DNA of 64,000 nt, from NCBI GenBank assembly GCA_963402885.1, contig OY727102.1, positions 3,472,001-3,536,000 of the forward strand. Direction: 5' to 3'. The position numbers were made by a program, and so were the translations under genes. The DNA is from Antedon bifida (taxonomy: Eukaryota > Echinodermata > Crinoidea > Comatulida > Antedonidae). A model generated the notes under the pieces. The model searched no databases. It was not told the origin of the DNA and was given only the letters and a program-made list of their open reading frames with translations. Position 1 is the stretch's first letter, and every line of letters begins with the position of its first letter. This document shows, piece by piece, positions 16,631 through 59,705 of this stretch.

Positions 16631-19600
16631 ATGGATAAAGTTGACAAAAAACGACTTGAGGAATGCGGTGCTTTGCCCAAAGGATGGAGTAGAGAAGAAG
16701 TTATTCGAAAGTCAGGCTTATCAGCCGGGAAATCAGATGTTTATTACTACAGGTTCAAATGATTTTCCCCTTTTAAATTAAGTTGCTAGGCCTACTAGCT
16801 AGGGCCTAGGCCTAGCCTAGCTAGAGGGCCTAGCCTAGATAGGTTAGGCTTGGTTGGCTAGCTAGCCTGGCCCTAGGCCTAGCGGCCTATCGGGCCTAGG
16901 CCTACGCTAGGCCTAGAGTATATTATTAGAATCCAGCAAGGATAGTGTGAACGTAACTTTACAGTAGGCTCTTGAGTTTAACCAAATTTGTTTTGTTTTA
17001 TAAATATTTATATAGATACTTCCCGGACAATATAATGATTCCTGCTTATTTTTAATTAAAGCATATTAAATATATAATTTGTTTCTTTTTGTAAAGTCCT
17101 TGTGGAAAGAAATTCCGAAGTAAACCACAGCTTGCAAGATTTCTTGGCGATGCAGTGGACCTAAGTTCATTTGACTTCCGCACAGGTAAACTACTATCGG
17201 CAGGAATACGCAAGAGCAAGCGGTTACGCAACATTTCTTATGACTACAACAAAGGTACGCGTCACGATTCATCATTGGTGCTTCCAATAAGGCAGACAGC
17301 TTCCATCTTCAAACAGCCAGTTACGACTGTGAGGAGGCATCCAGCTAACAAGATCAAAACAGATGTGAAACCAGATACGAAAGAATCGCCTAAACAAGTA
17401 TGTATTCATTCTTATGCATTACAGTTACATTTTTTTTCAACCATTTATTTACCCACACATTTATGTACTATTCTTACTTCCACCAATATTTGATACATCT
17501 GATACATTGAGAAATTGTTTGATTCAGAGATATTGTAACAGTGCTGACATAAACTTATTTTTTATTACTTTTTAAATTATTTTTCTAAATAAAATTGATA
17601 ATAATTCCTATTTTTTAGTTGTTCTGGGAAAAGCGATTACAAGGTTTAAATGCAACAGACATAGCAGAAGAATTATTAATACAAATGGAACTACCTGAGG
17701 GAATCACAAGTGAGTAGGTCTTGTCATTTGGTGTCATCCTCATCGCCAGCTATTTATGTTGAACCTTTGTCCCTACTATTTAAACAAATGAACCTTGATT
17801 TAAATTCCATATTAGCACAGTTTGATGTTGTCTGTTTGACTAGTAAAAACATAGCACTAGTCTATAGTGAGTTAGTGGCTGAGCGGTTAAGACAGTGGAA
17901 CCATAATTATGTAGCCATAACATCGGCAATGGTTCAAGGCTCACTGGCTCCATGGTTCTGGTGGTAGAATGAGTCTTCTCGAAAGGACTAAGTCGCAGGG
18001 CCATCTTAGTGAGAAGTTGAATAAATAAAAATCAATACCATTTTAACAACCGCATACATTACTTTCGAAATGATGCATGTTCTTAGTTATTTTTTTCACA
18101 AAATCAATTTTTTTTCTAATAATCCAGGTGTAGGACCAGGTATGTCAGATGAAAGTCTAATACAAAGTATAGCATCCAGTTTACACCTGAGCACACAACC
18201 AATCACAGGCCAGAATGCATCACAGGTAATGTACTTATTTCTTATTGATACACAGTACGGCTATGAGCGCTCACTGGCTAAACCCATGGGCCCCAATAGG
18301 GCCCCAGAGCATAAGCAGCCACAATTCAACTACCCAGCGTTGGAGGGCACTTAGGAATGTTAAACCAGGGGCCTTTTCCCCCTGCGTTACACCACTGTTA
18401 ATACACAATCAGAGAGTTGCAACCCCAACCAGGGTAAAAAGTTTGAAATCGTGATACATTTTTAAAGCTCTGTCTACACTATCAAACTAATTTGACAAAG
18501 AAATGTGTGATGTGCCCAAATATGGTAGTGATATTCTCAAATATGGTAGTGATATGACATCATCATGTCCATATATGGGCACATCACATTGTTTTGTCAC
18601 ATAAAGTTTGATAGTGTAGAGAGAGCTTAAGATGTAATTGAGTCTTCGTTTACATACCCTCCTTGTATACCATTTTTTTTTTTTTATTGTAAACTTTTAT
18701 GATATCTACTGCACATTATGTTTAATTCTCGTATAAGTTTAAGTGCACTAAATATCGTATTTATGGTCTGTTGTGTTGAAGCATGATTTTAGCAAATCGT
18801 GCAAACATCACATAACTATTTATTGCGTGCCACCAAATTTTATTGATGTTTTCTGTAGTTTAAGGTGAAAATGTCAACATTAGGGTGTGATGTTCTATCT
18901 TTTATGTTCATTCTTACGTAGTGTTTTGACTGTGAATATCCATTGTATTTTTAGTCGCAACTCTACAGCTCACTATGTCGGTCGGTTGGTCGGTAAACAC
19001 TAACTCAAATTTGAGCACGCGACTCCAGCCATGTATATGGCCTTGTTTAATTACCATATATTCTCTGTATTTTTTTAAAAACATTAATACTGCCCTCTGT
19101 TGGCAAAAACTTGTTATTTGTTTGTAATGTGCACACACAAGGGATCAGGATTACACATGAACTTGAGTGACCTTTCTTTGTGTAGAGTATATAGTCATGC
19201 TTGATCAGTGGTGAATGCACTAAACACAGCCTTTCATTTGATGTTATCCCAGTGCATATAATCATGAAGGTGTTCATTCATGCACGTCAATGCAGAGCAG
19301 TGGAGTGTGATTGGCTGGTGATGGCCGCCCTTCACAACTGCATGGTGTGTGTATGTGTGTGTGGAATAGGCTTTGTACACCTGAAAATCTCATCAAAAAA
19401 ATTGAAGTTTGATTAATCTAGCAATCAATAATAACAGACAGACAAAGAAACTTGATAAAGGCAGAAGCCCAGTAATTCAATGTTGAAACAGCTATCTAAA
19501 ATATTATCTACTGTATTAATTATTAATATCTATATTTATCATACTTTCATTCCTTACTATACAGACCTACATCATTCATTCAAGATCATTGTAATATATG

Positions 19601-22600
19601 CCATAAGTACTTGGAATTAATGTAATGTATTATAACATGTAATAGAACAATAAATACTCAATCATTACAAAATGCATCAATAATCGTTTATTTCTTATAA
19701 AAACAAAACAAAAAAACTTACAGTAATGTATTTTTATTATGTATACATTATTGATTTATTATTCGTTTACAACCTAATCTCAAGTATCAGTTTAAGTATA
19801 ATAGACATTTAATTGCAATGTTTGTGATCATTTTGTAATCAAATTTGAATATCATTTTCTGGCAATATCTCCCTCAAAAAATAATAATCAATTCAATTTT
19901 GTTAAGGTATAATAACTGTAGCTCACTTTTGGCTTGACCCCCATGGTCTTACAGTCATTGCCACAGGCCTAGATAATTATCATGATTTAGCCCTGACCCA
20001 TCCCTGGCCCTCTTTATGTTTTTACAGATGGTATAAAAAACATGTTAATATTTTACTGTTTTTAAATGATTGGTTGTTGATGTTGTCTTCAAATTTGTAC
20101 TTTTTTTTTCTCACAACTTGTTCATAGACATAATATTATGAACAGCTTGTCAATTTAGAAATAAGCAAATATGAATACAGCCTATAAAAACATGACAATG
20201 ACACTGTACGAAAGTCTGTAGCGTTGGTTTGCCCTTTTGTTTCCAAAAAACAAACGCTGTTAGCAAAGGACAAAGCAATAATTCATAATATATGGTAAAT
20301 GGAATAGAACTATGATATCAAGATAAATTTCACATTAAAAAAATATCAGATAAATATACTGTAACTACGATAATCCTGTAATTGGCGTTTAACACTTTTG
20401 GACATAAATTGTAAAACCCATGGACCTATAAATTATATTTATAGGTCCAAACAAAAGAATGTCTTTAATTTTGTTTAGTTTATTGAAAATTATTCACACA
20501 TCATAAAATTGAAAAGTTCCAAATCATGAAGGTAAAACATTGTATGTGTAGAAGGAAGTTTAAAAGCGAAACCTTACGCCTAGAATTATATTTTGAACCA
20601 CTTTTTTCTTTTTTTACTCATTAGGATCTGTTTCCCCATTGCTGTAATTTCCCATTTTTTAATACTCAATATATATTACTGCTTAACATCATTATCAACA
20701 TGTTATGGCTGTATGTTGTAACAATGTTTAATAACATAATACAAATGCATTATTCTTATAAACAAATTGTTAGAAAAACAAGTGCTTTAAATTAAAGGTG
20801 CAGTCTTTTTTTTTATCAATAAAATCAATACTTTAATTTTGTTATTATTCATGGGTTCATACACTTAGTGCTAAATTTTTAACAAATTTACATTTACATT
20901 TTAATAAATTTAACAAAATAACAAACAATTTTAAAATTTTCGAAGATCAGAAAACAACTTAATCTATTTATAAATTCATTAAATAACTGCATAAATGTGC
21001 AACTAGGAGTTTTTATAAATTTACCGTATTTGATTATTTCTTTTTGCTATAATTTTCTCCCAGCTCTTTCAATGAATAATTCTCCATCTAAACTTCCAAG
21101 TTGTTGTTGGAAGGTGTTATAATTTATAGATTTTTCAATTATTACAACCATCATCATCATAATAATTTCACGTACTAGCAATGCATACCATTACCTTCTT
21201 TACATCAATAACAAAGAATTCTTGTCTTTAATTGTGAAATTGTAAGATATTCTATTGTATAGATGTACAGTTCATTATTTCTTAAAATTAGTATAACTGT
21301 AAAATAGAGATAGTATTTAATTAAAATAATATTATTTATTCGGCAACAAACATAGTTACCATGAGAATGAAATAGGCTGGAGCCCAAACTGCTCATATTC
21401 CATCATTAACACCATTAGAATACTACAAACATACATTATTATGTACGCTGTAGTTTACTTACTAGTACAAACATTATTTGAAAATATAGTTTTATTAGTC
21501 TTTAATTAAAAACATTAGTAGAAACTAGAATACTGTATTAACAGTAGTTGCAATGCCTGCCTTTATCTCTTTGTTATAATGTTTTGCCTTTAACTCTGAC
21601 ATTTGTCTGCTAATCTTGGAATATAATAACATAAATATTGCCTAGCATGTTATGGAAATTGGATATTATACAGCCAGGTCATGGTTGGGTAAACATGCAT
21701 AGAAAACAATGTTTAATGGGGATAAAGCGTTGCTTCAATATATAGGTATATTATAAAACAGTAATATGCAGTGTAAGGTATGAACATTATTAACGCATGG
21801 AATGAACTACATGTTATTTAAAAATGGATTCAGAGAATTTCAAAATATGAATAAATAAAATGTACTATCCATAAAAATTGCATTACTACTAGGTAATACT
21901 GTACCTTGAGGTTCTCACAGTCAGAATAAAGTGGTACCATATTTAATTTTGATATTAATCATGGAATTTGTGACAATTTAAAGTCTTTTTAGACACTATT
22001 TGTAGAAATGTTACCTTTTAATAATAATAATAATAATAATAATAGTTCATTCTTATTAATAGCGCACACCTACTCTAGTTTGCTTTGTGTTTGCAAATAA
22101 TAGTGCTTTATTAATTATCTGCGAATACATTTGCCTTTATTATTATACAGATATTGCCTGCTTAGAGGTGAAATATAAGATTTGACATCCCCGAGGGAAT
22201 GATATTATGTTCGAGGGAATATATATATCCCGAAGCGGCAGCTGAGGGATATATAATTCCCCGAGAACATAATATCATCCCGAGGGGATGTTAAATCTTA
22301 TATTTTACCGATATAAAAGGCGATATCTGTTATATTATATAGCCAAGATTAGAACAAGTCTGCTGGGTTGGGTAAGCCAGGCTAGGCCTCCTATTCTATA
22401 GTAGGCCTAGAGTATTTGTATTGTATGTAAACAAGCCTCCTGCCTAGACACCTTACCTTGCGAAGAATAATATACAGATAATTACTAATTAATGATTCCT
22501 TGGCAATAAAATATTCACTTAGGCCTAGGTCGTTTAAATTAACAGAAGAATTTCCATCAATAAGCCTATTAATAATAATATTATAATCAGGTAGGCCGAA

Positions 22601-25600
22601 TAATTCATCGTCTTCTCTTCGAGGAGCGAGCCGAATCACCGGATGTTCAGCGCGTACTAGTTACTAGGTTACTACTCACCAATCACAAACGGTGTTTCAT
22701 CACATTTAGGGAGGACTAATAACAAATGAGGGCGCTATGTATGCATAGTTTAAATAGTTTAGATGAATAATTTTTTCAAGCAAGCTGCGTGGCGCAGCGA
22801 TGGAAACGTTGTCTTGCGATGGAGCCACCCGAGTTCAAATCCAGTAGATGACTTTTGTTTATTTATCGGCGAACGCGAGTGTTGCCACACGAAAATTACA
22901 CAGTCAATATCATCGAACTCGAGAATGTATATGTTTAATAACAGGGGACACGATAATTACGCGAAAATTAATCGGTCAATATCATCGTTCTCGAGGATAT
23001 ATACGATTTACGATCCTCGCAGCGGTAGTCACGTGACGCAGTTTCAACCAATCACGTTCACGTATTTACATAGGCTATGTAATATAATATAATATTATTG
23101 ATTTACTTTTACACATTCAGATTGATGTCTGTGTTAAACTATAGATTAGTTTTTGTTTTAAAAAGAAACCAAAAATATTGTTATTAGGTTTAATTGCTGC
23201 TTGAGAGTTATGGTTTCGTACTGTACAACAATCATAATCATTTGGATCAATGCTGCTGTAGGAAATGTCATCATTAATAAAACTGTACTTATATATTCTA
23301 TTCAATCCATTTTCATTTCTTTTTTAAACGAATACCCAACACAGGATCATTTTTAAAGCAATAAAATGGTTCCTGTGTAAAAAATAAAAACATTTGTTCA
23401 AAAACCGAGGCGGCTTGAAAATCGGGGGAGGGGCTGTGACCTTAAGCCATTTTTATATCAATTGTTCGACTAAATTTTTCTCTAGAAGTGTCTCACAACT
23501 TACGATTTGAAAAGCTAATAAATACTTAATTATTACAATAGAAATAATTTAAATACACTGAACTATGAATCCATTAAGTCCACTGATGATATGTAATTAG
23601 AAATTATTGATTAATTATAAAGCGTTCCATAATGAGTAATTGCTCATTCTACTAAGTTAGCCGTAAATACCTCGTTATACCTTATCTATTCAATAATATG
23701 CAAGCTTTGAATAACTTGCATTCTAAACTAATGCGTATCTTAGATGTACTGTAAATAACTGTTCTGCATGCACAATCTGTATCTTCAATTTGTTATATCG
23801 ATGCAGAAATCAAGGTTGGAGTAACCGTGATTGTCAGTTATCATGGCAAGAAGATTTAAATCATGCAAAGATTGTCAATGCAAAAAAATTCATTAAAAAG
23901 GAAGTCATAAATATTGGATGGTTTTATTTATAGGCCTATTCATTTTATTCATTTGTAGGTACATTACAAGAATATTAATGTTGATGATCACTGCTCGGAA
24001 TTGGTATTGATCAGTTCGTTCATTCATCTATCATGTTTCATCAGCATTAATTTTAATCTCTAAAGCTCTGTCTACACTATTATTAAATTAGATGTGACAA
24101 ACAAATGTGATGTTCCCATATATGGACATGATGTTAATGTCATACCACTACCATATTTGGGCATATCACTACCATATTTGGGCACATCACACTTTTTTTG
24201 TCAAAGTAGTTTGATAGTGTGAGCTCAGTTAACATTGAGACATACATATTTATGAGTATGAATTTGTTCTCAAAATCATAAAATAATTTATTACCAAATG
24301 CATGTATACTATACTATTGATTATACACACTATTTTCATCCAATTCTCATACTTTTATGGCATTATGTTCCCAGTATCATAGGCAAATTCTGAGATACAG
24401 TGCCACATACTGTATGTATCACATGTGGCGCATGTTGGAGTTTATATAGCCTTATGATAATGACTATTACTTATTATTAGAGAATAGACAAATTATAGAT
24501 ACAGTGCAGAGAGTCATCTACTATTTGGAAAAAATAAATATGTTTAATGTTTTAAAGCACAGTCATTAAAAACATAATAGTCTTTTAATATCCCTATATA
24601 TATTTTGTTCTACTTTTAATAACTTGAATTACAATTGGCCAGTAAAGTACAGTGGTTTTTTTGCCGTAGAACTAGAAGTACAATTACAGTTTTATTATCA
24701 TATTGTACATTATTATATTTTTCCTGCAAAAAAACATGAAAGTGAAATAACATTGTACTGTAAATATGTTAGTTTCATTATTTTTTTAATAGTTTTAGGT
24801 TTATTTTTCTTTATTGTTTTCCAACATTTGTTTTTGTTTTTTTGCTTTTTGTGCGTGTGACCCATTCGAATAGTCGACAAATAAATTATTAAAAATGCTT
24901 TTGTTCTTAACAGATTAATTCATCAGTTTTCTTTTATCAAATATCTGAGAGGGGTAGTTTTGTGCCATGAAAGACCTATTTTCTACTAGGCAAATTTGAC
25001 GTGAATCAAAAGCGTCAGTTATATTTATTTGTGCATCATATGTGTACATCTTCCAATCCCTTTCTACGACGAATTATTCAAATTCAACCAAAAACCCATT
25101 GGTTGGCAACCAATTTGAATATTGTTTTGCTTTAAAATACAATTTTTCAGGTAAATATATTTTTTTTTCAATCCAATTTTTTTTTTTTCAATCCAATTTT
25201 TGGTCAAACTGGATAACTATTATGGAACATCAAAATGGCATATTCAACAGCAACAACATTATATCAAATGAATGTGACCAATGTTAAAGATATCGATTCC
25301 TGCTGTGTTGTTATTGCTCAACATGATATATTAACTCCCCATGGAATACACATCATTGCGAATTCCTATAATAATGTTAATGTATCTGATGTGTCCAGAG
25401 TACTATTAACAGTTTTCAGACAGCAGGCTTTTAACATTATGAGTTTTTTATGAATAAAATGTGAAAGAATATTTTCAAGCTACAGTATTTACCAGTATAT
25501 AATTTTGCGTAGTGGAGCTGTAGCTTGGTGGTATGCTTGCCTTCCAATCCCAAGGTTCAATCCTGACCTAGTGCCAGGGTTGTAACTCGCGACTCTTTCA

Positions 25601-28600
25601 ACTCCATTCTCTAATCCTCAAATGAGACTTGGTATAAGCATGGTAAATTATAAAACAGTTTATCCATCCTGTAATTGGCGAGTTTGTGCTCGCTGTTGGA
25701 TGTGTATGAAATATTTAAAAAAATATTGTATTGCCATTTAGGTAGTTACTGTACTGTAAGTTAATGCCTTTATTTTTCCTCCTACACTACAGGGCCTCTA
25801 GGTTTAGCCAGTGAGCGCTCATAGCCTGCATAAGTGAATATTTTCAGCTGTGTAGCAAAATGCTACAGTACTCAAACTACCTTATTTCTATACATAAAGC
25901 GATGTAGCATAAATAAAATATGAAACTATGTTTCATCATACAGAGACTTCATCGATTATCATTTATTGCTAATAACATTTTTGAAATGAAAATTATCTCC
26001 GATTACCAGAATAAAAATCATTTGTGTACAATAAATTGTTGTAACATTTTTTTAGAATTTCTTTACATATTCCATTTGATGATTGTTATACTGCATATCC
26101 CATCATTAACTGCCATGACAAACATAGCATTCATGTTGTAATTCGGAATTTCCTTTTTTATTGAACTTTTAGTCTCAATTGGAAAAGAATCCAGACGTTT
26201 ACATTAACTCTGATCAACCTTTGTGTATCAAATTTGTTGTTAATGAAACCGATATAAAAAACCAGGAGGACCGGGTACGAGATGTCCGGGAACGATTACA
26301 GAAGGTACTTGAAGGGGATGTAGAAGCCATCGAAGGTATATTTTTTTTAATTAAATTAAACGATCTGATCTTTATTAATTACATTTTTCGCGCCGTGCCT
26401 TTATAGGCAGTTATGTTCGAGAGGACAGAAGCATTAAGAAGCTATACTGTATATCAAGTGGAAGCTTTAGTACAACAGGCCGAAAGATTTGAGAATTTGT
26501 AAACTCGGACGGGTCATGCTCAAACCCGGCAGCACGTCTGGGAAAAGAAAGTCTATGAAAACATTTGCTGATAATATTGAGAGTCTGTAATATCTTTTTT
26601 CAATAAACAATGTGTTGGATGTCAATCTAGGCAGGTAATATAATAATGGTCAAAACTTTAGTTTGGTTGTCAACCTATAGGCCAGTATTTACAATGACGT
26701 CCTTTTGACTGTCAATCTAGGCCGATATTATACTAATTCGCCGTCAGGTAATCATTGAATTATGGTCCAAACGGTCCTTCTTGGTCAATTTGTTTGTGGT
26801 TGGGGAGCAGGGGGTTGGTAGGGGAGGTCCAACCTTTATCGTCAGATGGTGAACATTCAGTCTAGCAGTATCCGAGGAACACCTACTCCATTAATTATCC
26901 AGAAAAAAGGTTTGTTGTCCCTCTCCTAATATAATTATATAAAAAAATAGATTTTGTATTGTGGTTTCATTTCTGATAGTAATGACATAGTCTCTGGATG
27001 CAAGTTCATAGACCTAATAGTTAGTTGGAAATAATATTCATGTTGAATGATAGTTCTCTTCAGTTTTTTATTAGAAAATATAATATAAATTTGTTTCATT
27101 CAAAATGAAACATTTTAATATAATAATTCAATAAAAAAGTACAATTATGGTATCGATTAGGGGTGTAAATAGCGATGTAAAACGGTATTTATGTATTGTG
27201 GAAAGGGCCATTGTTAAGACTGAAAAATTGGACTTATCAATAAATAAAATATGCTTTTGTTCAAAATGTAACAATTTAGAATTCACTCAAAATTATTGCA
27301 CAGAGAAATTTGGCTTATAAAATAACTACTTATAATAATAATTACTTATGATATAGATTCTATACCTCGTCAAGTTGATCGTGAGATCAATACATCAAAA
27401 TCGGAATCAGACCGTTTGATTCAATTGGGTATGTTTGAATAATATTTTTTAAAATATTGACATGCATGCATGGTACGCGATCTATAGGTTCCAACCCCTA
27501 AGCTCTGTCTTTACTAAACTAAATGTGATGTGCCCATTATTATATAGACATGATGATGTCATATCTACCAAATATCATACTATAAATTATTTGGGCACAT
27601 CACACTTTTTTTACAAACTAGTTTGATAGTGTGGACAGAGCTTTACGATTGCGTGACCAAAACTAACCCCCCAAGGGCTGACATGATATTGATTCCTGGC
27701 AGGTCTTTCAATCACATTTGATAAACATTGCTTGTCTTTATGACTGAGAGTGAAAACATTTATTCATTCTGTTTTAATTGTAGGTACGGCAAGACCTATT
27801 CCACTACACAGTGACTTTGACAATTGCTACCACAATGTCATCCAAATTCTGCGTCCTGTTGCAAGTTATTTCTACACCACCAAATACAAAAAACAATCGT
27901 CATTACTCAAAAAGACACTGTTATGTAATGACTACAAGCAGTTCACTAATTTTTCTACACAACTTTTGAAGGAAATTACAGACAATAGTGAATTGTTCTA
28001 TTTGGGCCAACAGTCTGATGCCTATGAGTACATGCTAACATTATTACAACATATGCCAACTGATCCATGTACAATCACATTGAAACAAACCATTACCTGC
28101 AATTCGTGTGGTCATGTATCTACAACAATAGATCACTCAAATCATTATATTTTGAGACTAAATGACACACAAACCATACACACAGCACTACTGAATTCCT
28201 TAATAAAACCTCATAGTATTGACTTTTTATGTACGTCCTGTACATTCAACAAGGCATTACAAACAAAAGTTATTCACACAGCACCGTCTGTGTTGATAAT
28301 TGTGTTGCAAACAAATCATAGTCCTGGACAAAAAAGTGATGTCGCTGGTCTGGCATCCAACACACTGTCTTTACCAACTGTCACTGGTGCAGATGTACAG
28401 TATTCATTACAGTCAACTCTAACACATCTTGGAATGACGACATCATCTGGACATTATACCTCCTGTACTAAGACAGGTTCATGTAAAGAAGCAGATGCTG
28501 ACAAATTGGTGTCTGTACCAACTATGTCTGGACAACCAGCATATATAGCTGTGTATACACTTGATACAAATATGCCTGTGCAAGATCAAGGACATCGGCC

Positions 28601-31600
28601 AATTGAAGTTGAACAAAATAAAGAAATACCACTTGCAGACTTTGTTGTAGTTAATAGAAAAACGAAATCAGTTGTAACACAACATTCAGTTGTTTCAAAT
28701 GCACCATCATCTAAAATAGATATAATTATAAGTAACCTGGCAAAAAGATCTGATAATATAGCTTATAACAAACGAACAAATAATGAAACACTATCTGATT
28801 TACTGACAATGGATTCTACTGCTGCAAACACAAATAATATAACATCACAATCGGTTGTCCGTTCATCAGAAAAAGAAGGCACAGGACAAGACACTAACAC
28901 TAACAAGGCATGTAGACAAGGTAATGAAAGCAATCAATCGTCATCAAAAGAACAAAGTAGACCTACTAAATCAATATCTAAAGAAAATGCTGATATAACA
29001 GTTTTAAGAAAATCGGTTTCTGAGGTTGCCACCAGTATACCACCAGTAGATAACAACCAGACAACGAGCTTAGAAACAGAAGCAAGTACAGATGTGGGCT
29101 CTCATATATCTGCGAAAATACAAGAACAGATGTGTACACAAAGTGTGGTTACTAAGAAGTTCTTTCGCCAACAGGTTATGAAATTCATAAAATCACATAA
29201 CGCCGATGTCACGTATAAAGAGACATTACAACATTATATTGGTCTAACGGTAAGTTCCTTTTGTCGCTGGAAGGCAATAGTGAAAAAAGAACTCGATGTT
29301 CGCACGGTTAAACAAAATGTACTACAATGGCTACAACAAAACAAAGATGATGCCTCCTTTCAAAATACCTGTCAACAGTTTCCTGATTTAAAAATCCATA
29401 AATCTACACTTACAAAATGGAAGCAGCAAGCTAAAGCACTGAAAAATACACACGTCGTTAGCTCGGAAGATGCTACAAAAAATATAACATCACAGTCGGT
29501 TGCAGAAGAACAAGACAAAGAACAAGACACTAACAAGACATTATGTAGACAAGGTAATGAAAGCAATAAGACCCAGAAAATGAGAAAAGAAATATTCCGT
29601 ACAAAAAAATGCTGCTCGACTTGTTGACATAACAATTTTAATTATTGATCTTCAGAAATATTTTTCAAACAAATTATAAATTGCCTGTTAGTATTTTGTA
29701 TCTATATTATAATAAAAAAAAAGAATTATGAAAATCTGACTTGTAGTTTTTGAAATATAGGGTCTAAAACATCACCGAAAAAAATCATTTTTAGCCACGA
29801 ACGAAGTAAACAAATTGCGGCCTCAGTCAGCAATTGTATGAACTACACCATTTTTCGATAAAATAAGAGTTTACAAATTTTCATTTCTGTCAGAGGTGCA
29901 TAAATATCATAGACTCTCTTTTTCCAGAAGTGCTTTGAGTCGTCGAGCATGGACCTATAAATTGGTCGAGTTTACAAAGTTGCTCATTCGCGCGGTTCTT
30001 TAAATTCATTATTTGAGAAACACTACCAGATTAGGCCTCCTTGAAAATACTGAGGATGTACTTTTTTTTGCCGACAACGTGCAAATGTTACGTTAAAAGG
30101 TCGAGCGGCGTTTTTTGTAATTTAGAGATATTTCTTCAGTCAACTGAATTTTGGAACTCAAACCTTTCAATCTTCAGTCCAGTCACTATCAATGTAACTA
30201 CAGTACAACTCCTCCTTTGGGGCGTCCCCTATTCCGGTGGCATCTCTATTGAAGGAGACACACTCCTGAAGTTGTCCCCTAAGTTCTACTGTATAAGAAC
30301 CTAGTGTTTGAGTTAAAGGTAAAAGAGTGTATTGAATTTACAGTAATAGTATACCTTGATTTACAGTAGCAAAGATACCCATCATGGCGTGGGTATCCTA
30401 ACTGTAAATCATCAGCATAAAATTAAAAGACAATAACAATATATATACAAATTTACCGAAAACGCTATTTTGAAAACGTACAGTATTATTAGTGGATATA
30501 CATATGATTTCAGAACAACAAGATTTACGATTTTTTCACCGTGGGTGCGCGCTCGCTGTACAGCCGTGTGCTGTGACGTCATGTGTGCATAGCAAAACCT
30601 ACCTCATGAGTTTTCACTGTCGTTACCATACAAGAGATGGGTACCCGTCATTTCAATTGCTAATTTGACCTGTATGTAGGCTTAAATTGCCATAGTCTGT
30701 TATTTTAAGAAAAACTTCAATCCAGATAGGCAAAAGAAACAATAACATAAATTCAACATTTCTATTTTTAAGATTTATTTTAAAAAGTATTTTTACTAGT
30801 AATTTTTCACGCTTGTTTTTTTTGCAATGTGTTACCAAACAACTTTAGGGTAAATTTTAAATTTAACAAAGTGGCTACTGTCCAACGAAAATCCCAAAGA
30901 TTTTAGAAAATCATTTTCAACCTTTATCTAGGTTTAGAATTAAAAGTTTATGTGAATAATTAAAGAGATTTATTCTAGAACAGTGTTGTACTGGGAATGC
31001 AAATGAATGCAACCTACATCTACATGTTGATAGCATGATCTGGTGTACAGAATACATCCGATGGCTTCCAAAGCATTTTGAGAGATCCAATCTAGCTATA
31101 GTTAATTATTATAAAATGCTGTAGAGAGGCTGTTTCATGATAAATTGTCATTCTAATAGATCCAATAATTATTCTTCTCATTATTGATGCCAAACCAGCC
31201 CAGTCAGAAGTCTCTCCTAGTGTATTTATAAACAATTTAATTTTAATGATATACTGTTTTTCTAAATCAAGCATTTGGTGCAGAACTGAATACCATTATG
31301 GCCCATCTATTTTTACTTGGCAAAATATAATTTTGCCAAGTATAGTACTTGCTTTGTATGTTTGTTAGCACGATAGCACCTACAATTTTGAAGTTATCAT
31401 TCTGAATTTTTCGGTGTAAATAGGTATATTTACAGAACATGCTTATTGATTTTTTTTTTTAAATCAATAATAACTTCACTATAAAAAAAAGACAAATTTG
31501 TATTCTTTTAACATAGGCCGAAATATCAACGCCCTCTGTGCCAAAATTTGCCAAGTACTTCGCTCAGTTTCTGAGTGCTTTCATTTATTGTATTTTTTAG

Positions 31601-33209
31601 TATGTATACTCTTTAACTTGAAATACTTCTTTACGTCCCATCTGAAGACCAAATTAATTTTTCTTATTGCGTCAGTATCATTTGTAAAAGCTTTTAAAGG
31701 CTTTATTGATTTGAAGATTTGTTTTAATTGTCATATGATCCTTAAAGAAGTGTACATAATTAATAAATCTATAAAACGATTTTAAATTGATTAATATGTA
31801 ATTGTTTATCTTTCTGGCAGAATTAAAATAACAATTACAGATATCTACTATGAAAGCAATTAATATTCTACATTGCGCTGTATGATCTTTTAGCAGCCTA
31901 TACTAATTGGCGCAATTAATTGGTCCTCGTCGTATTTCTTTGGTTGTACAAGAACAAAAGCAATCAATTTAAAAGCCCGGGGGTTTATGTGTAATCAGCG
32001 AGCATTTAGTATCATTTAAGTGTAGGTTGTCTCATCATCTGCGACTAGTACACTGTATAGTAGTTATTGCTACTACAGATGGTATAGTTCTTTTGTTCCA
32101 TGCAATTGAAGCTCTGTTTGCTTATGATCATTCTGTACATCTTTGTTGTACACTCTAATAGTGGTTTTTAATTGCACTGATCGACAGTTTGTTATGATGT
32201 AAACTTTGCTAATCCAGGCCAGTGTAAGAGAACTCTGACTCACCGCACATGTCTTCTCTTCTCTTATAATGAACACAATACATATTTACATACAGTTCAT
32301 AGTATGTAAAATTAATATTGATTTCTTTGTTACGATAGATTTTATTCACGTGGTGGTAACAAACATGTTGTTAGACGATAGTATTACCATCACAGTTAAT
32401 TTCTATTAACTTAATTGAAGCATGTGCGTGTAAAATATTATTTTACAATAGTTTTTTGTTGGCTTTTTCCATTTGTAGTACAATTTTATTATATTTGATG
32501 CCAATTTTTGTACATCGTTTGGTTTCATTTTTTTCAGGCAAAAAGTAATAATATGATTGCTTGCTGAATTAAAATTAAAGTATGTTAAAACTAATTTATC
32601 TATATAAAATACACATTAACATAATCCTTTTTTCTGTAAATTTAAAAAAAAATCTTATACTAATTATAATTTCTAATATATATTGTGTGTGTAACCATAA
32701 TACAGTACTACAGTATACATTTTGTTATGTAAACTAGTTTGCACCGATCCATATTTGGAAAATTAGTTATGAGGCTGAGATTGAGAATATATAAAGCATT
32801 TGCCAAAATTTAGAGGGTGGTATGGTATAATTTACATCCAAATGTGAGGTCGGCTTTTAAACAAATCTCAAGCACGAGTATCTTTAAAGAAAATGGCAAA
32901 CTTGAATGGGTATCAGGTGCTTAAAATGGCATATCATGATATACATTGTCGAAAGTGTGTCTGCAACGTACATTTTCCTACTGTAAATCACAAGTCTTTT
33001 TCTTATATTTGAGTTAAAACTTTGTTACTTAAAAACTACTACTTACTACACTCTCAAATTAGTTTGCACCAACTAGTACAGTATGTAAAGAAACACTTTT
33101 TTTTGTATCCATAATATTTAAATCAGTGTTTTTCTTTTCAGCGGAACTAGATGAGGATGGTGATGATGATGACGAGGAGGAAGAGGAACCAAATTCTGAG
33201 GGAGAATAA
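16631..33209 (+). CDS. MBD2/3: methyl-CpG-binding domain protein 2/3
   Basis: Nuclear methyl-DNA reader of the MBD2/3 family, a NuRD (Mi-2) co-repressor subunit in animals. Six exons join in frame: 16631-16752, 17097-17397, 17619-17709, 18128-18225, 26173-26335 and 33142-33209 (843 bases, 280 residues, like the 291 of mammalian MBD3). The MBD spans about residues 9-75: GALPKGWSREEVIRKSGLSA, then SDVYYY and SPCGKKFRSKPQLARFLG. Arg26, Tyr38 and Arg48 match methyl-CpG contact residues of MBD2; mammalian MBD3 has Phe at the Tyr position, so this protein should bind methyl-CpG. LPIRQTASIFKQPVT and the FWEKRLQGLNA...GPGMSDESLI block follow. The exon 5 helix (DIKNQEDRVRDVRERLQKVL) corresponds to the p66/GATAD2-binding coiled coil. 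The tail is Asp/Glu-rich. ATG 16631 is the first in its frame. A CCCCCAG acceptor-like site upstream hints at a non-coding 5' exon. AATAAA follows at 33648-33653. Confidence 0.95.
16784..16920. repeat. dense CTAGGCCTAG palindrome array in MBD2/3 intron 1
   Basis: About 135 bases composed almost only of overlapping CCTAGGCC, GGCCTAGGCC and CTAGCTAG blocks, far richer in GC than the introns around it. It begins about 30 bases after exon 1. Each unit is self-complementary, so the RNA or DNA can fold in many registers. Confidence 0.75.
17866..18020 (+). mobile_element. tRNA-like SINE in MBD2/3 intron 3
   Basis: An A box (TGGCTGAGCGGTTAAGAC) and a B-box-like GGTTCAAGGCTC about 60 bases later are followed by a body with GGTGGTAGAATGAGTC and an AATAAATAAAAAT end. 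The head is Leu/Ser-tRNA-like and resembles the SINE at 4660-4880. It lies in the intron 17710-18127, about 100 bases before exon 4. Confidence 0.65.
18245..18435. repeat. GC-rich dispersed repeat, inverted copy at 25790
   Basis: GGCTATGAGCGCTCACTGGC followed by TAAACC recurs in inverted orientation at about 25796-25830. The segment is GC-rich (GGGCCCCAATAGGGCCCC palindrome) and follows exon 4 by about 20 bases. It is probably part of another SINE. Open frames here are not genes. Confidence 0.5.
18465..18628. mobile_element. MITE family copy 3, both ends intact
   Basis: The best full-length copy. The left end AAGCTCTGTCTACACTATCA and the right end TGATAGTGTAGAGAGAGCTT form terminal inverted repeats of about 24 bases. 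The inside contains CCCAAATATGGTAGTGATAT units and the inverse block ATATATGGGCACATCACA. It lies just inside MBD2/3 intron 4. Confidence 0.85.
18640..22140. other. MBD2/3 intron 4, mostly featureless
   Basis: AT-rich intron with no convincing exon on either strand. A perfect 12-bp-arm hairpin (TGGACCTATAAA with TTTATAGGTCCA) is at 20421-20449, and an (AAT)n microsatellite of about nine units is at 22020-22046. Confidence 0.5.
22148..22329. repeat. 182-bp foldback (long palindrome) in MBD2/3 intron 4
   Basis: The two halves are inverted repeats over almost the whole length: CAGATATTGCCT...GTGAAATATAAGATTTGACA on the left against TTAAATCTTATATTTTAC...AGGCGATATCTG on the right, through GAACATAATATCATCCC-type blocks to a loop GAAGCGGCAGCTGA near 22240. 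Small gaps occur. It has no resemblance to the other MITE family, so it is a separate foldback element. Confidence 0.8.
22391..22660 (-). CDS. possible antisense exon in MBD2/3 intron 4
   Basis: On the minus strand an open frame reads RREDDELFGLPDYNIIINRL and continues to YIILRK. It is followed at about 22459 by a strong donor (CGCAAG then GTAAGG). The frame has no ATG, so it would have to be an internal exon (acceptor-like ACTAG at about 22654). A CCAAT box and a CpG-containing stretch lie just upstream on that strand. No partner exon was found and the peptide is not recognised. It contains a TAGGCCTA motif, so it may be repeat-derived. Confidence 0.25.
   Translation of the reverse strand, partial: LVRAEHPVIRLAPRREDDELFGLPDYNIIINRLIDGNSSVNLNDLGLSEYFIAKESLISNYLYIILRKVRCLGRRLVYIQYKYSRPTIE
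22784..22862 (+). mobile_element. SINE-like tRNA head
   Basis: GCGTGGCGCAGCGATGGAAACG fits a pol III A box, and GAGTTCAAATCCAGT 55 bases later fits a B box. The acceptor stem does not close. A duplicated body (next entry) follows, so the two may form one element. Confidence 0.5.
22880..23012. repeat. two-copy 72-bp direct repeat
   Basis: GAAAATTA...GTCAATATCATCG...CTCGAGAATGTATA at 22891 is repeated at 22963 as GAAAATTA...GTCAATATCATCG...CTCGAGGATATATA. It lies directly behind the tRNA-like head at 22784. An open frame through both copies is accidental. Confidence 0.65.
24063..24225. mobile_element. MITE family copy 4
   Basis: Left end AAGCTCTGTCTACACTAT. Two internal 21-bp units read CACTACCATATTTGGGCATA. 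The right end GTTTGATAGTGTGAGCT has lost a few bases. It lies in MBD2/3 intron 4. Confidence 0.8.
25508..25715 (+). mobile_element. tRNA-Gly-like SINE
   Basis: GAGCTGTAGCTTGGTGGTAT (A box) followed by TGCCTTCCAA (anticodon TCC, Gly) and GGTTCAATCC (B box) form a tRNA-Gly-like head. The body leads to the tail CCATCCTGTAATTGGCGAGT and GGATGTGTATGAAA. The same tail is at 11636. It lies in MBD2/3 intron 4. Confidence 0.75.
26411..26502 (+). CDS. possible alternative terminal exon of MBD2/3
   Basis: About 75 bases after exon 5 an acceptor (TTTATAGGCAG) precedes a frame that reads VMFERTEALRSYTVYQVEAL and ends QAERFENL then stop at 26500. Joined to exon 5 (phase 1) it is in frame. AATAAA is at 26602-26607. 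If the acceptor is taken four bases earlier, another frame (GSYVREDRSIKK...) is used and stops slightly earlier. Neither peptide is recognised. It could equally be an intronic relic. Confidence 0.3.
27500..27643. mobile_element. MITE family copy 5
   Basis: Left end AGCTCTGTCT(T)TACTA, right end GTTTGATAGTGTGGACAGAG CTTT. The internal units are eroded. It lies 140 bases before the acceptor of the nested protease-like exon, in MBD2/3 intron 5. Confidence 0.75.
27784..29627 (+). CDS. USP-like deubiquitinase domain plus HTH-like repeats, nested in MBD2/3 intron 5
   Basis: One uninterrupted exon of 614 codons with stop at 29625. Residues are counted from codon 1 at 27750. The first part matches peptidase family C19 (ubiquitin-specific protease) in motif order: Cys box DNCYHNVIQIL (Cys26), QQSDAYEY (87-94), two CxxC knuckles (117-120, 161-164), and the His box SGHYTSC (His235) followed by DADKLVSV and AYIAVYTL. 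The Cys box is one residue shorter than usual between Cys and the conserved Gln. A Ser/Thr/Asn-rich linker follows. Then come two HTH-like repeats of about 42 residues (472-513 and 520-562), each ending in a W-K pair. A block NITSQSV...CRQGNESN occurs on both sides of them. The frame is closed upstream (TGA 27741). No in-frame ATG precedes the Cys box, so an upstream exon is needed. The acceptor (TTTTAATTGTAG) is in phase 1, the phase in which MBD2/3 exon 5 ends. AATAAA lies at 29711. It may be transposon-derived or a chimeric isoform. Confidence 0.7.
29711..29723 (+). terminator. polyadenylation signal after the USP-like exon
   Basis: AATAAA about 85 bases after the stop, running directly into more A residues (nine or ten in all). 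It would serve an isoform ending in this exon. The A tract could instead be the remnant tail of a retroposed cDNA. Confidence 0.4.
30358..30410. repeat. hairpin in MBD2/3 intron 5
   Basis: GATTTACAGTAGCAAAGATA and CCC pair with GGGTATCCTAACTGTAAATC, with a small internal gap. The loop is ATCATGGCGT. It is a short foldback of unknown origin. Confidence 0.45.
30530..30660. promoter_or_regulatory. GC-rich patch with CRE site in intron 5
   Basis: GTGGGTGCGCGCTCGCTGTA and a perfect TGACGTCA (30574-30581) stand out in AT-rich intron sequence about 900 bases after the USP-like exon. It may be a regulatory element or a repeat fragment. No transcript start was identified. Confidence 0.25.
31313..31600 (+). 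repeat. dispersed repeat, inverted copy at 40940
   Basis: From about 31360 (CACGATAGCACCTACAATTT) through ATTCTGAATTTTTCGGT, AACATGC(T/C)TATTGA and TTTGTATTCTTTTAACAT to CTCAGTTTCTGAGTGCTT, the sequence matches the complement of 40940-41178 at high identity. A 13-bp-arm hairpin (TACTTGGCAAAAT with its complement, 31315-31343) lies at its left. An open frame over it is a shadow. Confidence 0.75.
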
Positions 33210-33653
33210 GAACTTTTATTATGACAACAGCTCAAAGCATAGTGTGTAGTTAGCTACATATTCATCACTCCACTCAGGTAACCACAACTCTTGGTGGCAG
33301 CCTTCTTACCATGAATATGTTGATATTAATAATTAACATATCCATAAGTTAAAAATGAAATAATACAATTGTTGAATACTCATACTATAGTAGTTTTATA
33401 CCTTTTCATTAATAATAATATTTTGTTAATTTCATTTAAAAATTTTGTTTAGCAATATTGCTTTTCAAACTGAATTTTGAGTCCAAAAACATAGTTTTGT
33501 ATTGTTTTTTGCAGAAAGTATGTTTGTAATCTTTTTGCTATCAGTATACCGACAAAACTGCACAGTTCCCTCATTATCAGTTAATTAAACAATATAATAT
33601 TCACAAATATTATTTAAATATTTATAAATTCAAGAATTAGACATTTTAATAAA
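33210..33653 (+). promoter_or_regulatory. MBD2/3 3' UTR
   Basis: AT-rich sequence after the stop codon. The first AATAAA is at 33648-33653; an alternative lies near 33740. No coding potential or structured element was seen. Confidence 0.5.
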
Positions 33654-33709: not shown

Positions 33710-36287
33710 TGTTGTTTTTTTAACCATTGCAAAAATGTATAATAAATGTCACCAAAAAATAGGTGGTGGTGATATTAATTGTTTTCAATATAATACAGTA
33801 ATACACTTATTTAATTTTATTCTTTATTCTTGCACAAGAAAGCATTCCAACAAATAAGTAGCCTCATTGCCAATTTATCTAGTTATAGATATAAATATTC
33901 TTGGAGTTAAATGAATTAAATATAAAGATCAATTAGGTGACTGCATGCATGTCATGAAGACTGTAAATGCATGCTTGAATAATATGCATGACTTAGTTCT
34001 GTATTAAAAGCTTCATATCATTTTGTAAACCTGAGTGTTCAGTGTTTGTATTAATAATAATAGGCAACTTTCTATTTGCAACGACCTGTATGACTTATGT
34101 AAATTATACGTCAATTTTTCGTCCACTAAATAAATTTTTCGGGACCACCGTGCAGCTACTCCTTCCTATTTTTGACTTAATAAAAGTTGACAAATGTTTT
34201 TTCTTAACCAAAATAAAAGACATGCTATTATTGTAACAATTACTACCGTGTTAACACCAAATCCTTGCCTGGTTTCTTTTACTAGAATACTTTACATCAT
34301 GGAAGAACATGGAAAGACCATGATGTAAAGTATGTTTAATTAATAGAGAGTTTTTGCTTTGGGACGGTAAAATGAAGTTGTCAGTAATCCACCGAGCGTG
34401 ACAGTTATTTTGAGAAACAACAGACGGCGGTCAGCCGCCTCCTGACATAGTCCGCAGACAATGTACACACAGGATTGGTGGGTGTGTTTGAAAAGTTTCT
34501 GCGCTAGCCAGGTAGCTAGGTCCTAGGTTAGCGAAGTTCAAAGGATGAACTTCAAAAACACTTTGTTAAAACCTTAAATTTTGCTCGGTTAAACTGATTA
34601 TAATCTGGGCGCAACAGGGTATACTGGGCTTTCATATACTCAAGCGCATATTAATATTTTGTATAACATATCCTTCTATATCTACCTTTCCCTTTCGTCA
34701 ACCGTACAATGCAAAAGCTTGTATAAAAAAAAAGTATACTACAGTCTTTTTTAAACTTATTTCCAAAGTTTCTTATCATCAGATCCGTCGTGCATGCAAG
34801 CAAAATTACAGTTGTTTTTTTTTAGTTCACATTTGTAGAAAAAAAAACTGTCAACATGCATCCTCTTAGTCTTGCTTCAATTTGTGTGTTTCTTAAAAAT
34901 AAACATATTGTAAGTGAGAAATGGTTTACTGTAACAGACAGCGGAAATGAACGTATGAGGTAAAATAATTGAAGAAGATCATTCCTGTTCAAGGTCACGT
35001 GATATAAATAGGTGACCTAGTTTTTGTGAACAGCATGGAAGCTGTGTCTAGAATAAATAGCTTTTAAAAGGATACTAAAACTTTCTTGAAATGTTGAAAT
35101 AGGGTTCTCAAGTACGGAGGAATAGCCTTAAAAAAACTACAAAGATTTGAATTACGGATATACGGAAATGGAGATAAGTAATGGAAATACACACATGTAA
35201 ATGTAAATATGTATATGTAAATTTATGATTTGGCTTCAAATTATTTTAACAAACCCTTGGTATTGGTAAGAAACAATAATTGTAGATTTAACAGTTATAT
35301 ATTAGCAAGTAAAGGCTGAACACATTGTATTATTGATGGTCGTACAGTAATTGGAAAATGAACACAATTATTATAAGCTAGTGGTCGTAATTAGAACTCA
35401 AATTTATACAGTAATGTCCTAATTGAGACTGAATGCAAATTATGTAATTTATAGCTACTGGTCCTAAAATGAAAACAAATTTTACAGATTCATTTTAATA
35501 CTAATGAGATAAGTTGCTAGAACCAACTAAACAAAATTTTTTTTTTAAACAGGTTAAAAATGGTATTTTAGAACCATATTATTATAGACATGTCTATGGA
35601 ATATTATAATTTCTTGGCATAACCTTTTAAAACTATTTAAAGCATGCGAAATTCACATCATATCTTAATCCAAAAATGATATGATAAATTATTCACACCG
35701 TTTTTCCAAGTATAAATTGTAGCGTTTTTGGTACATGCAAAAGCGAGTCACGTCTACCTGTCTATTTATAGTCTGAAATGCATGAGCACCGAGTGAATTC
35801 AGTATTAATGATAAACTTAGTGTGACCTAACCGCCAAATTTGTTGAGTGGATTTATTACATAACCTGTATTTTAACCATTCACCGTTTGATTTTGTGTAC
35901 TAAAATATCGCACCATTGATTTATTAGATCACCTGTTTATTTTAGACAGCATCGCAGTTTGCTAATGAAAATTGTAATTAGTTTTGAGGAAAACAAAACT
36001 ATTATTTGTCGGAAAGATTTTTTCTAATTCTGTTATGTCATGTTGTTGTTTATCTCAATATCTTGTGGTCTGTTTCTGCTGCATAGCGCTGAATAAACAA
36101 TTTATTAAAACGATATAATTTTTATATATCGACTGCATTTCTGCTAATTTTGTGCTCTCAAATAAGCGTTGTGATGAAAAACTTTAATGCAATGCGCTGA
36201 ATGCAAGATTATTAGCATAGTTAGTTGTGGATGAAATTTGAGCAAAGAATATGAATAACCAGTCAAGATATAAAGAACATTGGCCTA
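33710..36287. other. intergenic; hairpin and one GC-rich patch
   Basis: No gene recognised. A 16-bp perfect-arm hairpin (ATACTTTACATCATGG with its complement) is at 34287-34333. A GC-rich patch at 34380-34540 (GACGGCGGTCAGCCGCC) is open for about 55 codons on the minus strand but has no recognised content. It could be an exon, a promoter or a repeat. Confidence 0.35.
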
Positions 36288-36448
36288 AAACTCTGTCTGC
36301 ACTATCAAACTTTATGTGAAAAAAAAAATGTAATGCGCCCATATATGATGATGATGCCATATCACTACCATATTTAAGCATATCACCACCATATTTGGAT
36401 ACATCACACTTTTTATGTCAAACTAGTTTGATAGTGTAGACAGAACTT
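36288..36448. mobile_element. MITE family copy 6
   Basis: Left end ACTCTGTCTGCACTATCAAA, two internal units (CATATCACTACCATATTTAA and a variant), right end AGTTTGATAGTGTAGACAGA. Nearly full length. Confidence 0.8.
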
Positions 36449-36999
36449 TATTATCAACATATTTTCAACAATTCTTTAAAATGTGTATAACTGAGCACAC
36501 ACACATTGACTGGATTCATTTTTCATATTATTTTAACCTTTGCTCCAACTTGTTAAAATTTTAAAAGTATCACAGACATTTTGGAGGTCCCCTTCTGACC
36601 TCTCTATAGAGATTAACATCATCATCATGTGTTTTCCATCAGAGTGGTTGACAAAAGAACAATAAAGTTTCCTTCTATTGGCAACATAATATCCCAGTGA
36701 TTAATAACGAAAAGGTGTTCATATCCTTATTTCACCTGTGGCACATTACACTTGCTGGAGCACAGAATGTAATGTTGTAAATAAGTACCTATCTACTAAA
36801 TCGATTATTGACGATAAAAACAGTTTGTAAAAGGCTGTACATGTCAAGTTTGAGGTTGATTTTGGCTTGACATTTACAAATTGTGACCCTTTCAGCCCTT
36901 TTCGCTAAACCCATCCCCAACCCCCGAAAAACGACCTAGCCAGGGTAGAAAACGAGTTAAAATGCTTCGAAGTTGATTTTTAGGTTGCTTTGTTGTGTT

Positions 37000-37153
37000 A
37001 AGCTCTTTCAAACTTTATGTGACAAAAAAATGTAATGTGCCCATATATGGACATGATGATGTCATATCACTACCATATTTGGGCATATCACTACCTTATT
37101 TGGGCACATCACACTTTTTTTGTCAACTTAGTTTGATAGTGTAGACAGAGCTT
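37000..37153. mobile_element. MITE family copy 7
   Basis: The left end lacks the GTCTACACTA part (AGCTCTTTCAAACTTTATGT). The internal units and right end (GTTTGATAGTGTAGACAGAG) are well kept. It lies 550 bases from copy 6 in the same orientation. Confidence 0.8.
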
Positions 37154-40939: not shown

Positions 40940-41178
40940 AAGATGGAAGCACTCAGAAACTGAGTGAAGTACTTCGTAAAATTTTGCCACAGAGGGTGCT
41001 TGTCGGCCCATGTTAAAAGAATACAAATTTTTCTTTTTTTTATTTGTAAAGTTTTATTAATGAACCGATTTTCTTGAATTTCAATAGGCATGTTCTGTAA
41101 ATATATAGTATACCTATTTAGACCGAAAAATTCAGAATAATAACTTGAAAATTGTAGTCGCTATCGTGGTAAATAACA
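40940..41178 (-). repeat. inverted partner of the repeat at 31313
   Basis: See 31313-31600. The copies lie 9.6 kb apart in opposite orientation. The neighbouring open frames at 40757-41026 (minus) and 40813-41016 (plus) run partly through the repeat and are not supported as genes. Confidence 0.75.
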
Positions 41179-43750
41179 AACAAAGAAATTACTAATATCA
41201 CTGTTGATGTTCGCAACCATTTTTATTATAAATTAAGATACCACTGTCAAGTGCCTTTTGACTGGCCCCGCTATGCCAACTTTTCTACTGGTACTGTAAA
41301 ATGCTATTTATAGATAGTAGGACTTTCTTTCAACTATGTAACATTGACTACAGGACAGTGGGAAAAATATGTAATTAAATAGTATTGTGATACTAACTCC
41401 GTCTCATTCACTAGATATAATTTTATATTTCAACCTGAATGGAAGATAAAAAGAACTGAACTTAATTAATGTCAATGCACATCCTTCAACCATATCTCTA
41501 TGGTTTGTCAGATGACTTTTGTGCATCTTAACAAAATAATATTTAGAATTGAATACTGTATATTTATAATCCTGTTTCTTTTAGTCGGATTTCTGCTAAA
41601 AGCAAACAACAGTGGTTTCCGCATTTATTTGTATAATTTCCCAAGGCATATTGTTCAGGAGGATTTTTTTATTGGAGATGGGGAGTTTTTTTTTGGGGGG
41701 GGGGGGGATAGAATAGTCCATATATACTCAAAAACGCTCACTCGATATACAAAAAAAATAATATTAAAAAGCTGACCTTGAGGTAACTACTGTAATGTTT
41801 TGATCACTTTAGCGCATTGAATTTTGGGTAATCATAATGACCACTCATTGATTTAAAAATTTTTTTGGCGAGCGTAAACTTAGCAGGAATATGGTCAGTG
41901 TATGATTATATTTCTTAATATCATTAAATAAAAAATTATGCATCAGAATATGCACTTGGAAATTTGCCATATTTATTGAATTGATGGATTTAAACAGCCT
42001 GAATTGCCAAAATACAATGTAAAGTACTTAATGCTATACACCACCCCCTTTCCAATTAATTAGTAAATCCAAAATCGAAATTGATATTCATTTAAACTAA
42101 ATTAAACACTCAGTTACACAAACTAAATAACATTCAGTATTACCACTGGCTATTTTCTTGTAAATAAGCTCAATTGTTTAGGCCTATAGTCTCGAATTTT
42201 ATTGTTTTTCACAGTTTTAATCTGAGATCTTTAAACTTGGGAAATTATATACTTAAAATCATTTATGTTTAATCATAGTCTTTCACTGTTGTTATCAAGC
42301 GGAGCTAATACTAATTAACGAATAAAAGATATTATAATATCTTGATCACACTTGTGAGAATTTTATTTTTTTGCCACAGGGCTAGTTCACAGGTTGGATT
42401 ACCCATTCATATAATTGTTCTTGTGTTAATATATTAATCAAACAAATGATTATAAAACTAAAAAACACAACTAATTTAAAGTTCATTGTTTGATTAGTTG
42501 GAGGTGACCTTGCACTGAGTGTAAATAATGCATGACCCTTCCTGCCTCAGGGAAATCCCAAACTGTAGGTCTTTTGAATTTATACATTTTCAGTCAATCA
42601 ACCAAGTTGCAAACTACATATTGCAAGTAAAGTACTGCAAGCATGCAATGAATACTGCAGTAAAGGCATATACTATTTTACTTTGTTACCTCTTTTTACT
42701 GTCTACTTGACATTTCATAATAATTCCATACGTTTTGAAAATTACTTCCAAGTTCTAATCCAATAACAATCATTGCTTCAGCAATCTTACTTCTTGTGAA
42801 CATCAATGTCTGGGGAACACTAAGGGATTGTAATCCAGTTTGAGAGCTAGACTAACCATTAGCCTTGTGATGCTGGAATGCGCGATTCTGCTCAACCGAC
42901 CGGGATCAGTTATACCAAAAGTTAGCGATTTTTTACTTTCAATTCTGGTTATATATATCAGGAATCGCAGATGTAACATATATTGCTAATACCAATTACA
43001 TTCATTTCCAGCCCTAGGCCTAATAAACATTATTTATTGTTTTTACATTGCTGAGTACTACATAATTCATTTATGATCACCAGCAGTAACTCTTTCGTTA
43101 TAGATTAGTTTAGGGTCGACCATCCCTCTCTCTCTCTCTCCCTGGATCTGCTAAATGTACGTATTCGGTTCACACATCTGTGTTGGGCTTGATCATGGTC
43201 TCACTCTATTAACAAATAAATAAATAATAATGATCTTATATAAAATTGTTCAATTCAGATAAAACTCAAATTTGAAAATATAATATATATTGTTTATGTG
43301 TATACATTATAAACAAATAATAGTTTAAACCTTGGAAATATAATAGGCATCTTAGTATATGCTAAATTTAACTTAAAACGTTAATGCAGGAATCAGAGCA
43401 GAAAGTTTTTTTTCTTATTAAACATCTGTGGGTTGGGCTTTGTTCCATAATAAAAGGTTTTTTTGGTAAAACAGGTTGAAATATAGGTGACAAAAAACAT
43501 GAAAGGATAATGGATTAAGAATTTGAAATAAAAACAGAAAAATAGCTTTGCACTATTTACTTCCTTTGACCCTATAATTCTTGATATCAAAAGTATAATT
43601 TTTTACGCAACGTATCAGAGTAGTGTTTCCGGATATTAGATATTATATAATGAAATGATGTCTAAACTTAATTTGATTATGACTGATGCTTTTTTGACAC
43701 CTTTGTGTATCAGGTAGTTTAATCTATCCCAAGTTCAAACAGATTCAGAT
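41179..43750. other. no gene seen; T/G and CT runs
   Basis: AT-rich DNA without recognisable exons. A run of about ten T followed by 13 G is at 41685-41707, and a short (CT)n tract lies near 43125-43142. Confidence 0.45.
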
Positions 43751-59700: not shown

Positions 59701-59705
59701 AACCT

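Follow-up and report, generated by a model that had tools for sequence, protein, structure and literature searches.

Within intron 5 of the methyl-CpG-binding gene MBD2/3 of the crinoid Antedon bifida lies a long open exon, on the same strand as the host gene, that encodes a ubiquitin-specific protease (USP) domain followed by a tandem repeat resembling helix-turn-helix (HTH) units. Both were found in a 64,000-nucleotide stretch of contig OY727102.1 (assembly GCA_963402885.1, positions 3,472,001 to 3,536,000), here called the window, and all coordinates count from its first letter. With moderate confidence, we consider it most likely that the exon belongs to a USP-HTH gene, mobile-element-derived or otherwise multicopy, that is placed as a '3' exon trap'. 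The USP-HTH unit would be the main 3'-terminal coding exon, bringing its own acceptor and poly(A) signal and relying on an exon further 5' for its start codon, and some MBD2/3 transcripts may splice into it from exon 5 (or exon 3), giving an MBD2/3-USP-HTH chimera. Such a chimera is possible because same-strand MBD2/3 transcripts should run through the USP exon. Support comes from a long intact open reading frame (ORF), the lack of a start codon before the domain, a high-scoring acceptor just upstream, the USP match itself, the tandem HTH-like repeats and an imperfect inverted repeat. The interpretation also draws, by analogy, on published work on protease-bearing transposons (PMC2836005) and on the layout of PGBD3 in CSB (PMC2268245).

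The first 273 residues of the exon (27784 to 28602, + strand) contain a peptidase C19 (USP) domain. When 27783 to 28602 was scanned alone, PF00443 matched with E = 1.2e-12 and 48.5 bits, above its cut-off of 23.9, and residues 21 to 231 aligned with positions 17 to 221 of the 254 in the profile. This bears out the USP-like label that a first-pass annotation had given the exon, although that description was incomplete, having missed the low-complexity linker and two HTH-like repeats that follow. A scan of the whole 627-residue ORF did not report PF00443 and returned three weak unrelated Pfam matches only (E 0.15 to 1.1), perhaps on account of the low-complexity linker. Searching the PDB with phmmer, the USP part found two constructs of USP36 (E = 0.0027 and 0.003) and, more weakly, USP14, USP35, USP1 and USP2 (E 0.13 to 7.8), mostly around the His box. 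The USP motifs occur in order: C15 in NCYHN, QQSDAYE from residue 76, CNSC from 106, CTSC from 150, H224 in SGHYT, and a candidate Asp, D238 or D240, in DADKL. Assignment of the Cys box to C15 comes from motif reading, because the Pfam alignment begins at residue 21, beyond the Cys. The box, SDFDNCYHNVIQIL, is degenerate, with one residue seemingly absent after CYHN and a Ser at the oxyanion position, where USPs usually carry Asn. With these two departures, deubiquitinase activity appears less certain than the first-pass annotation had assumed. A single-sequence structure model of the USP part was too poor for use (mean pLDDT 34.4).

The reading frame and its flanks are consistent with a terminal exon that depends on an upstream partner. 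Only two stop-to-stop ORFs in the window reach 150 residues, among them that of the USP exon (27744 to 29627, 627 residues). From an acceptor AG at 27782-27783, the exon runs for 614 codons and a stop (27784 to 29627, + strand); at 6.8% stops per codon, the value for the three + frames, the chance of 614 open codons is about 2e-19. The acceptor, ttttaattgtag followed by GT at exon start 27784, scores 4.6 on the home-made scale that we used for all acceptors and donors. Among the 2958 AGs on the + strand it ranks within the top 0.85%, and among the 366 AGs in 26336-33300 it is joint second; against the five MBD2/3 acceptors scored, it exceeds those of exons 2, 3, 5 and 6 and lies below that of exon 4. 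Residue 1 needs one upstream base, and no Met occurs in frame ahead of residue 84, well past the Cys-box Cys at residue 15. The earlier statements of an open 614-codon exon with a good acceptor and of no in-frame ATG before the Cys box both stand. An AATAAA that had been taken as accompanying evidence is indeed present (29711 to 29716, + strand), 84 nt past the stop, but it says little because the hexamer is frequent in the window (288 occurrences on both strands). Read from the sequence, the features of an exon trap are present: an in-frame acceptor, a large terminal ORF, a poly(A) signal and a same-strand host intron. Position-dependent base composition varies along the ORF, with its weakest signal in the first 306 nt, and the exon has an unremarkable CpG ratio, matched or undercut by 40% of window stretches.

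Downstream of the USP domain, a low-complexity linker leads into the two tandem repeats (29139 to 29450, + strand), each about 45 residues long. Aligned with each other, the repeats score 53, compared with 21.6 +/- 4.3 for shuffled sequences, none of 2000 of which reached that score. Taken together, their best Pfam match was HTH_Tnp_1 (E = 0.0091, 16.6 bits against a cut-off of 24.1), followed by HTH_23 (E = 0.024, 14.9 bits against 24.6), both below threshold. Taken singly, repeat 1 had no Pfam match, and repeat 2 matched only a bacterial antitoxin family (E = 0.027). The HTH-like part had no match in the PDB, and its single-sequence model (mean pLDDT 43.8) was too poor for use. The HTH label is our reading of the repeats, and the fold is putative, because the Pfam scores are sub-threshold, the PDB gave no match and the model is poor; DNA binding by this module would likewise be conjectural. 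The linker itself contains an internal duplication, 28830-28934 and 29475-29567, in the same frame and 78% identical.

The host gene is complete on the + strand, and its six coding exons join to encode 280 residues in which Pfam finds, in order, MBD (E = 1.6e-23, residues 10-72), MBDa (7.1e-28, 84-153) and MBD_C (7.6e-33, 158-250). The coding part of exon 1 (16631 to 16752) carries MBD sequence, and exon 2 (17097 to 17397, ending in phase 0) covers MBD and MBDa regions. Exon 3 (17619 to 17709) ends in phase 1 and is followed by exon 4 (18128 to 18225, phase 0) and exon 5 (26173 to 26335, phase 1), which holds the end of the MBD_C region, the part that binds GATAD2 (p66), with a match of 6.4e-15 in the exon frame. 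Canonical exon 6 (33142 to 33209) encodes the acidic tail AELDEDGDDDDEEEEEPNSEGE and the stop; among 39 acceptors scoring at least 3 in 26340-50000, it is the sole one with a clearly acidic phase-matched product. Because this acidic last exon closes the gene, canonical MBD2/3 is complete without the USP exon, which lies in the 6.8-kb intron 5 (26336-33141). The donor of exon 5, AAG followed by GTATAT, is rather weak (0.53, compared with -3.7, 1.98, 5.27 and 4.09 for exons 1 to 4), although the weakest MBD2/3 donor is that of exon 1. Just 3' of exon 5, at 26413-26502 (+ strand), we noted by eye a 29-codon ATG-to-stop stretch, MFERTEALRSYTVYQVEALVQQAERFENL, which could also be entered in phase 1 through a poorly scoring acceptor at 26411 (-1.6). 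In a sponge, two splice variants of EmMBD2/3 are described whose difference lies in the disordered region; the coiled coil of MBD2/3 is described as binding GATAD2A/B (PMC5240623).

Several exons could precede the USP exon in phase. Exon 5 ends with the one extra base that the USP frame requires, as had been claimed, and exons 1-5 joined to the USP exon give 872 residues with no internal stop and one terminal stop. This product retains the MBD and MBD_C regions and replaces the acidic tail of exon 6, in agreement with the first-pass annotation. Exon 3 ends with one extra base too, and exons 1-3 plus the USP exon are open for 785 residues. The one-in-three chance earlier attached to the phase match holds for each exon, but two MBD2/3 exons offer the match. 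Independent starts are also available in intron 5. A mini-exon, ATGCATG at 27466 to 27472 with the phase-1 donor GTACGC (score 3.01), is the only phase-1 ATG-to-donor pair scoring at least 3 whose ATG lies in 18227-27783, and a second ATG exon (26762-26813, + strand) ends in phase 1 at a donor scoring 1.04. The sequence therefore does not sustain the idea that the protein can start only through MBD2/3 exon 5, because exon 3 shares its phase and the ATG exons of intron 5 fit. A fusion transcript joining MBD2/3 to the USP exon is plausible from these junctions. However, several in-phase upstream exons and chance-level ATG pairs mean that the DNA does not discriminate between fusion and a nested gene. 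No MBD2/3-USP fusion appeared in the titles or abstract openings of the open-licence papers listed by searches that named MBD2.

Evidence for mobility was sought in the flanks of the exon. An imperfect inverted repeat surrounds it, its left arm at 26490 to 26558 (+ strand, score 43) pairing with a right arm at 29907 to 29986 (- strand), some 3.5 kb apart. The arm score was reached by none of 200 mononucleotide shuffles, by none of 100 dinucleotide shuffles and by one of a further 2000, and a profile of the arms found with nhmmer only two strong matches in the window, the arms themselves (the other three had E of at least 0.68). A number of observations weigh against a mobile origin. One of 60 comparisons of repeat-masked real sequence reaches 44 (a direct pair), and a score of at least 43 is found for 8 of at most 200 unmasked window pairs taken at random, some of them touching copies of a miniature inverted-repeat transposable element (MITE)-like family; because real-sequence comparisons match their score, the arms are weak evidence. 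No target-site duplication of at least 5 bp was found at the arms, which makes the random control for duplication uninformative, and the only candidate element ends were these imperfect arms. By eye, no CCGG, CCGT or TTAA stands directly at the arms within 40 nt on each side. Pfam revealed no transposase, integrase or reverse transcriptase in the scanned frames of intron 5, which within 27755-29627 comprised, on the + strand, the frame of the ORF itself and, on the minus strand, the sequence outside 27802-29600, and tblastn found no second copy of the USP-HTH protein in the window. The sub-cut-off HTH scores count on the same side, as do two weaker unrelated Pfam families that the repeats jointly match. 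The HTH-like repeats and the weak inverted repeat point as much to a mobile or nested gene as to an MBD2/3 isoform.

Intron 4, scanned on both strands, likewise held no transposase, integrase or reverse transcriptase by Pfam. A retrocopy was considered and rejected: no exact 9-mer is common to the flank after the A-run and upstream intron 5, and the inexact matches are all A/T-rich, namely a 12-mer at 27446 that has a single mismatch and three 14-mers, overlapping one another, that have two. Between the mini-exon and the acceptor lies a palindromic MITE-like repeat (27516 to 27645, + strand), whose family recurs at 1032-1158, 18463-18628, 24061-24221, 36286-36450, 37028-37153 and 59705-59864, plus partial copies; the longer copies share about 75-82% identity with the intron 5 copy. 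A different dispersed repeat, 31343-31584, also within intron 5, has an inverted counterpart at 40943-41194 that is 79% identical over 257 aligned positions.

The likelihoods that we attach to the competing explanations are judgements and were not computed. One alternative, which we regard as unlikely, is that the exon serves MBD2/3 as an alternative last exon under selection, exons 1-5 being spliced to 27784 so that USP-HTH replaces the 22-residue acidic tail in an 872-residue protein whose MBD would bind DNA and whose MBD_C would hold GATAD2 (p66)/NuRD. The in-phase junction with its open translation, the intact MBD, MBDa and MBD_C, an acceptor better than that of exon 6 (4.6 versus 3.3) and the CSB-PGBD3 precedent (PMC2268245) all agree with this proposal. 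The phase match, though, is a one-in-three event, the exon 5 donor is rather weak (although the canonical junction uses the same donor), and exon 3 and the intron 5 ATG exons also fit. A combined form, in which the last exon was captured from a mobile USP-HTH gene and yields a deubiquitinase with a tandem HTH module targeted to methylated DNA or NuRD, seems to us slightly less probable again.

We judge just as unlikely as the selected isoform an independent nested gene that would have a promoter of its own, begin with a short first exon within intron 5 and serve a function unrelated to MBD2/3; the mini-exon ending at 27472, for example, would give a product beginning M-H-G-T-A-R-P. Both intron 5 ATG exons, with phase-1 ends, have donors that outscore the 0.53 of exon 5. 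Such pairs are nevertheless expected by chance, about 0.75 scoring at least 3 per 1.43 kb as estimated from the whole + strand, and ATGs at 27462 and 27470 surround the better pair in the other two frames. The least probable explanation, a young 5'-truncated or silent USP-HTH copy that is functionless and open merely through recency, accords with the lack of a start codon ahead of the degenerate Cys box and with the uneven position-dependent base composition, weakest in the first 306 nt, but a random truncation point would be unlikely to leave a good acceptor just before the domain boundary, and the retrocopy comparison gave no exact 9-mer, only A/T-rich inexact matches such as the 12-mer at 27446.

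The observation made by the first-pass annotation is thus right and its domain call upheld, while the MBD2/3-USP isoform is plausible from the sequence and, as a selected product, unproven. If real, the fusion would be a natural example of a deubiquitinase tethered to methylated DNA and NuRD, and of an exon trap that has captured an enzyme of a kind different from a transposase. If the USP-HTH unit is merely a nested or mobile gene, it would still combine a USP with a tandem HTH-like module in an unusual architecture, which bears on the role in transposition suggested for the ubiquitin pathway (PMC2836005).

The remainder of the window, which has about 32% G+C, includes a nicotinic-receptor-type ligand-gated channel gene upstream of MBD2/3 (6223-9312, + strand), with separate ORFs matching Neur_chan_LBD (1.1e-24) and Neur_chan_memb (2.1e-11 and 5.1e-06). 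A tRNA-Ile-like sequence at 15141-15215 (- strand) is possibly a tRNA gene or a tRNA-derived short interspersed nuclear element.

Searches for relatives beyond animals gave, in viral contigs, 13 pattern matches for the whole exon, 4 for its USP part and 2 for its HTH part and, in prokaryotic genomes, 23 for the USP part, none of which was confirmed; this says little because the query is an animal gene. NCBIfam and PHROGs offered nothing useful. Like the cellular USPs USP36, USP14, USP35, USP1 and USP2, the exon encodes a C19 domain with QQDAxE-like, two CxxC and SGHY motifs; unlike them, it has a degenerate Cys box and an HTH-like tail. To our knowledge, no such tail is known in cellular USPs.

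Ubiquitin- and SUMO-protease domains (OTU, Ulp1) have been described on Ginger1, Mutator and Helitron elements, and a peptidase C19 domain together with a transposase in Trichomonas (PMC2836005). The USP-HTH unit resembles these elements in its ubiquitin- or SUMO-protease domain, and it may sit on a mobile element that spans 3-4 kb and has inverted ends. It differs in that no integrase or transposase was found, including a Ginger1-type Gypsy-like integrase in the USP ORF or the scanned frames of intron 5, and by eye CCGG and CCGT are absent from the 40 nt outside either arm. SETMAR and other host-transposase fusions (PMC9062482, PMC12062965, PMC8700633) likewise join a chromatin domain to a mobile-like part, here potentially and with HTH-like repeats; capture of a Tc1/mariner HTH by F-box genes is a further instance (PMC12062965). 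Unlike those fusions, the USP ORF and the scanned intron 5 frames contain no transposase catalytic domain.

A close comparison is with PGBD3, a piggyBac element in intron 5 of human CSB that serves as an alternative 3' terminal exon and for which an 'exon trap' lifestyle has been proposed (PMC2268245). PGBD3 brings a transposase with a Met of its own, and it has terminal inverted repeats and a TTAA duplication; the USP exon instead encodes a USP-HTH protein that lacks an early Met. The CSB-PGBD3 fusion has been demonstrated by mRNA and protein, while that of MBD2/3 with the USP exon would be a prediction from the DNA sequence. The two nevertheless share a large single 3' exon on the same strand within an intron of a chromatin-factor gene, with an acceptor directly before the ORF, an AATAAA downstream and a frame that matches the preceding host exon.

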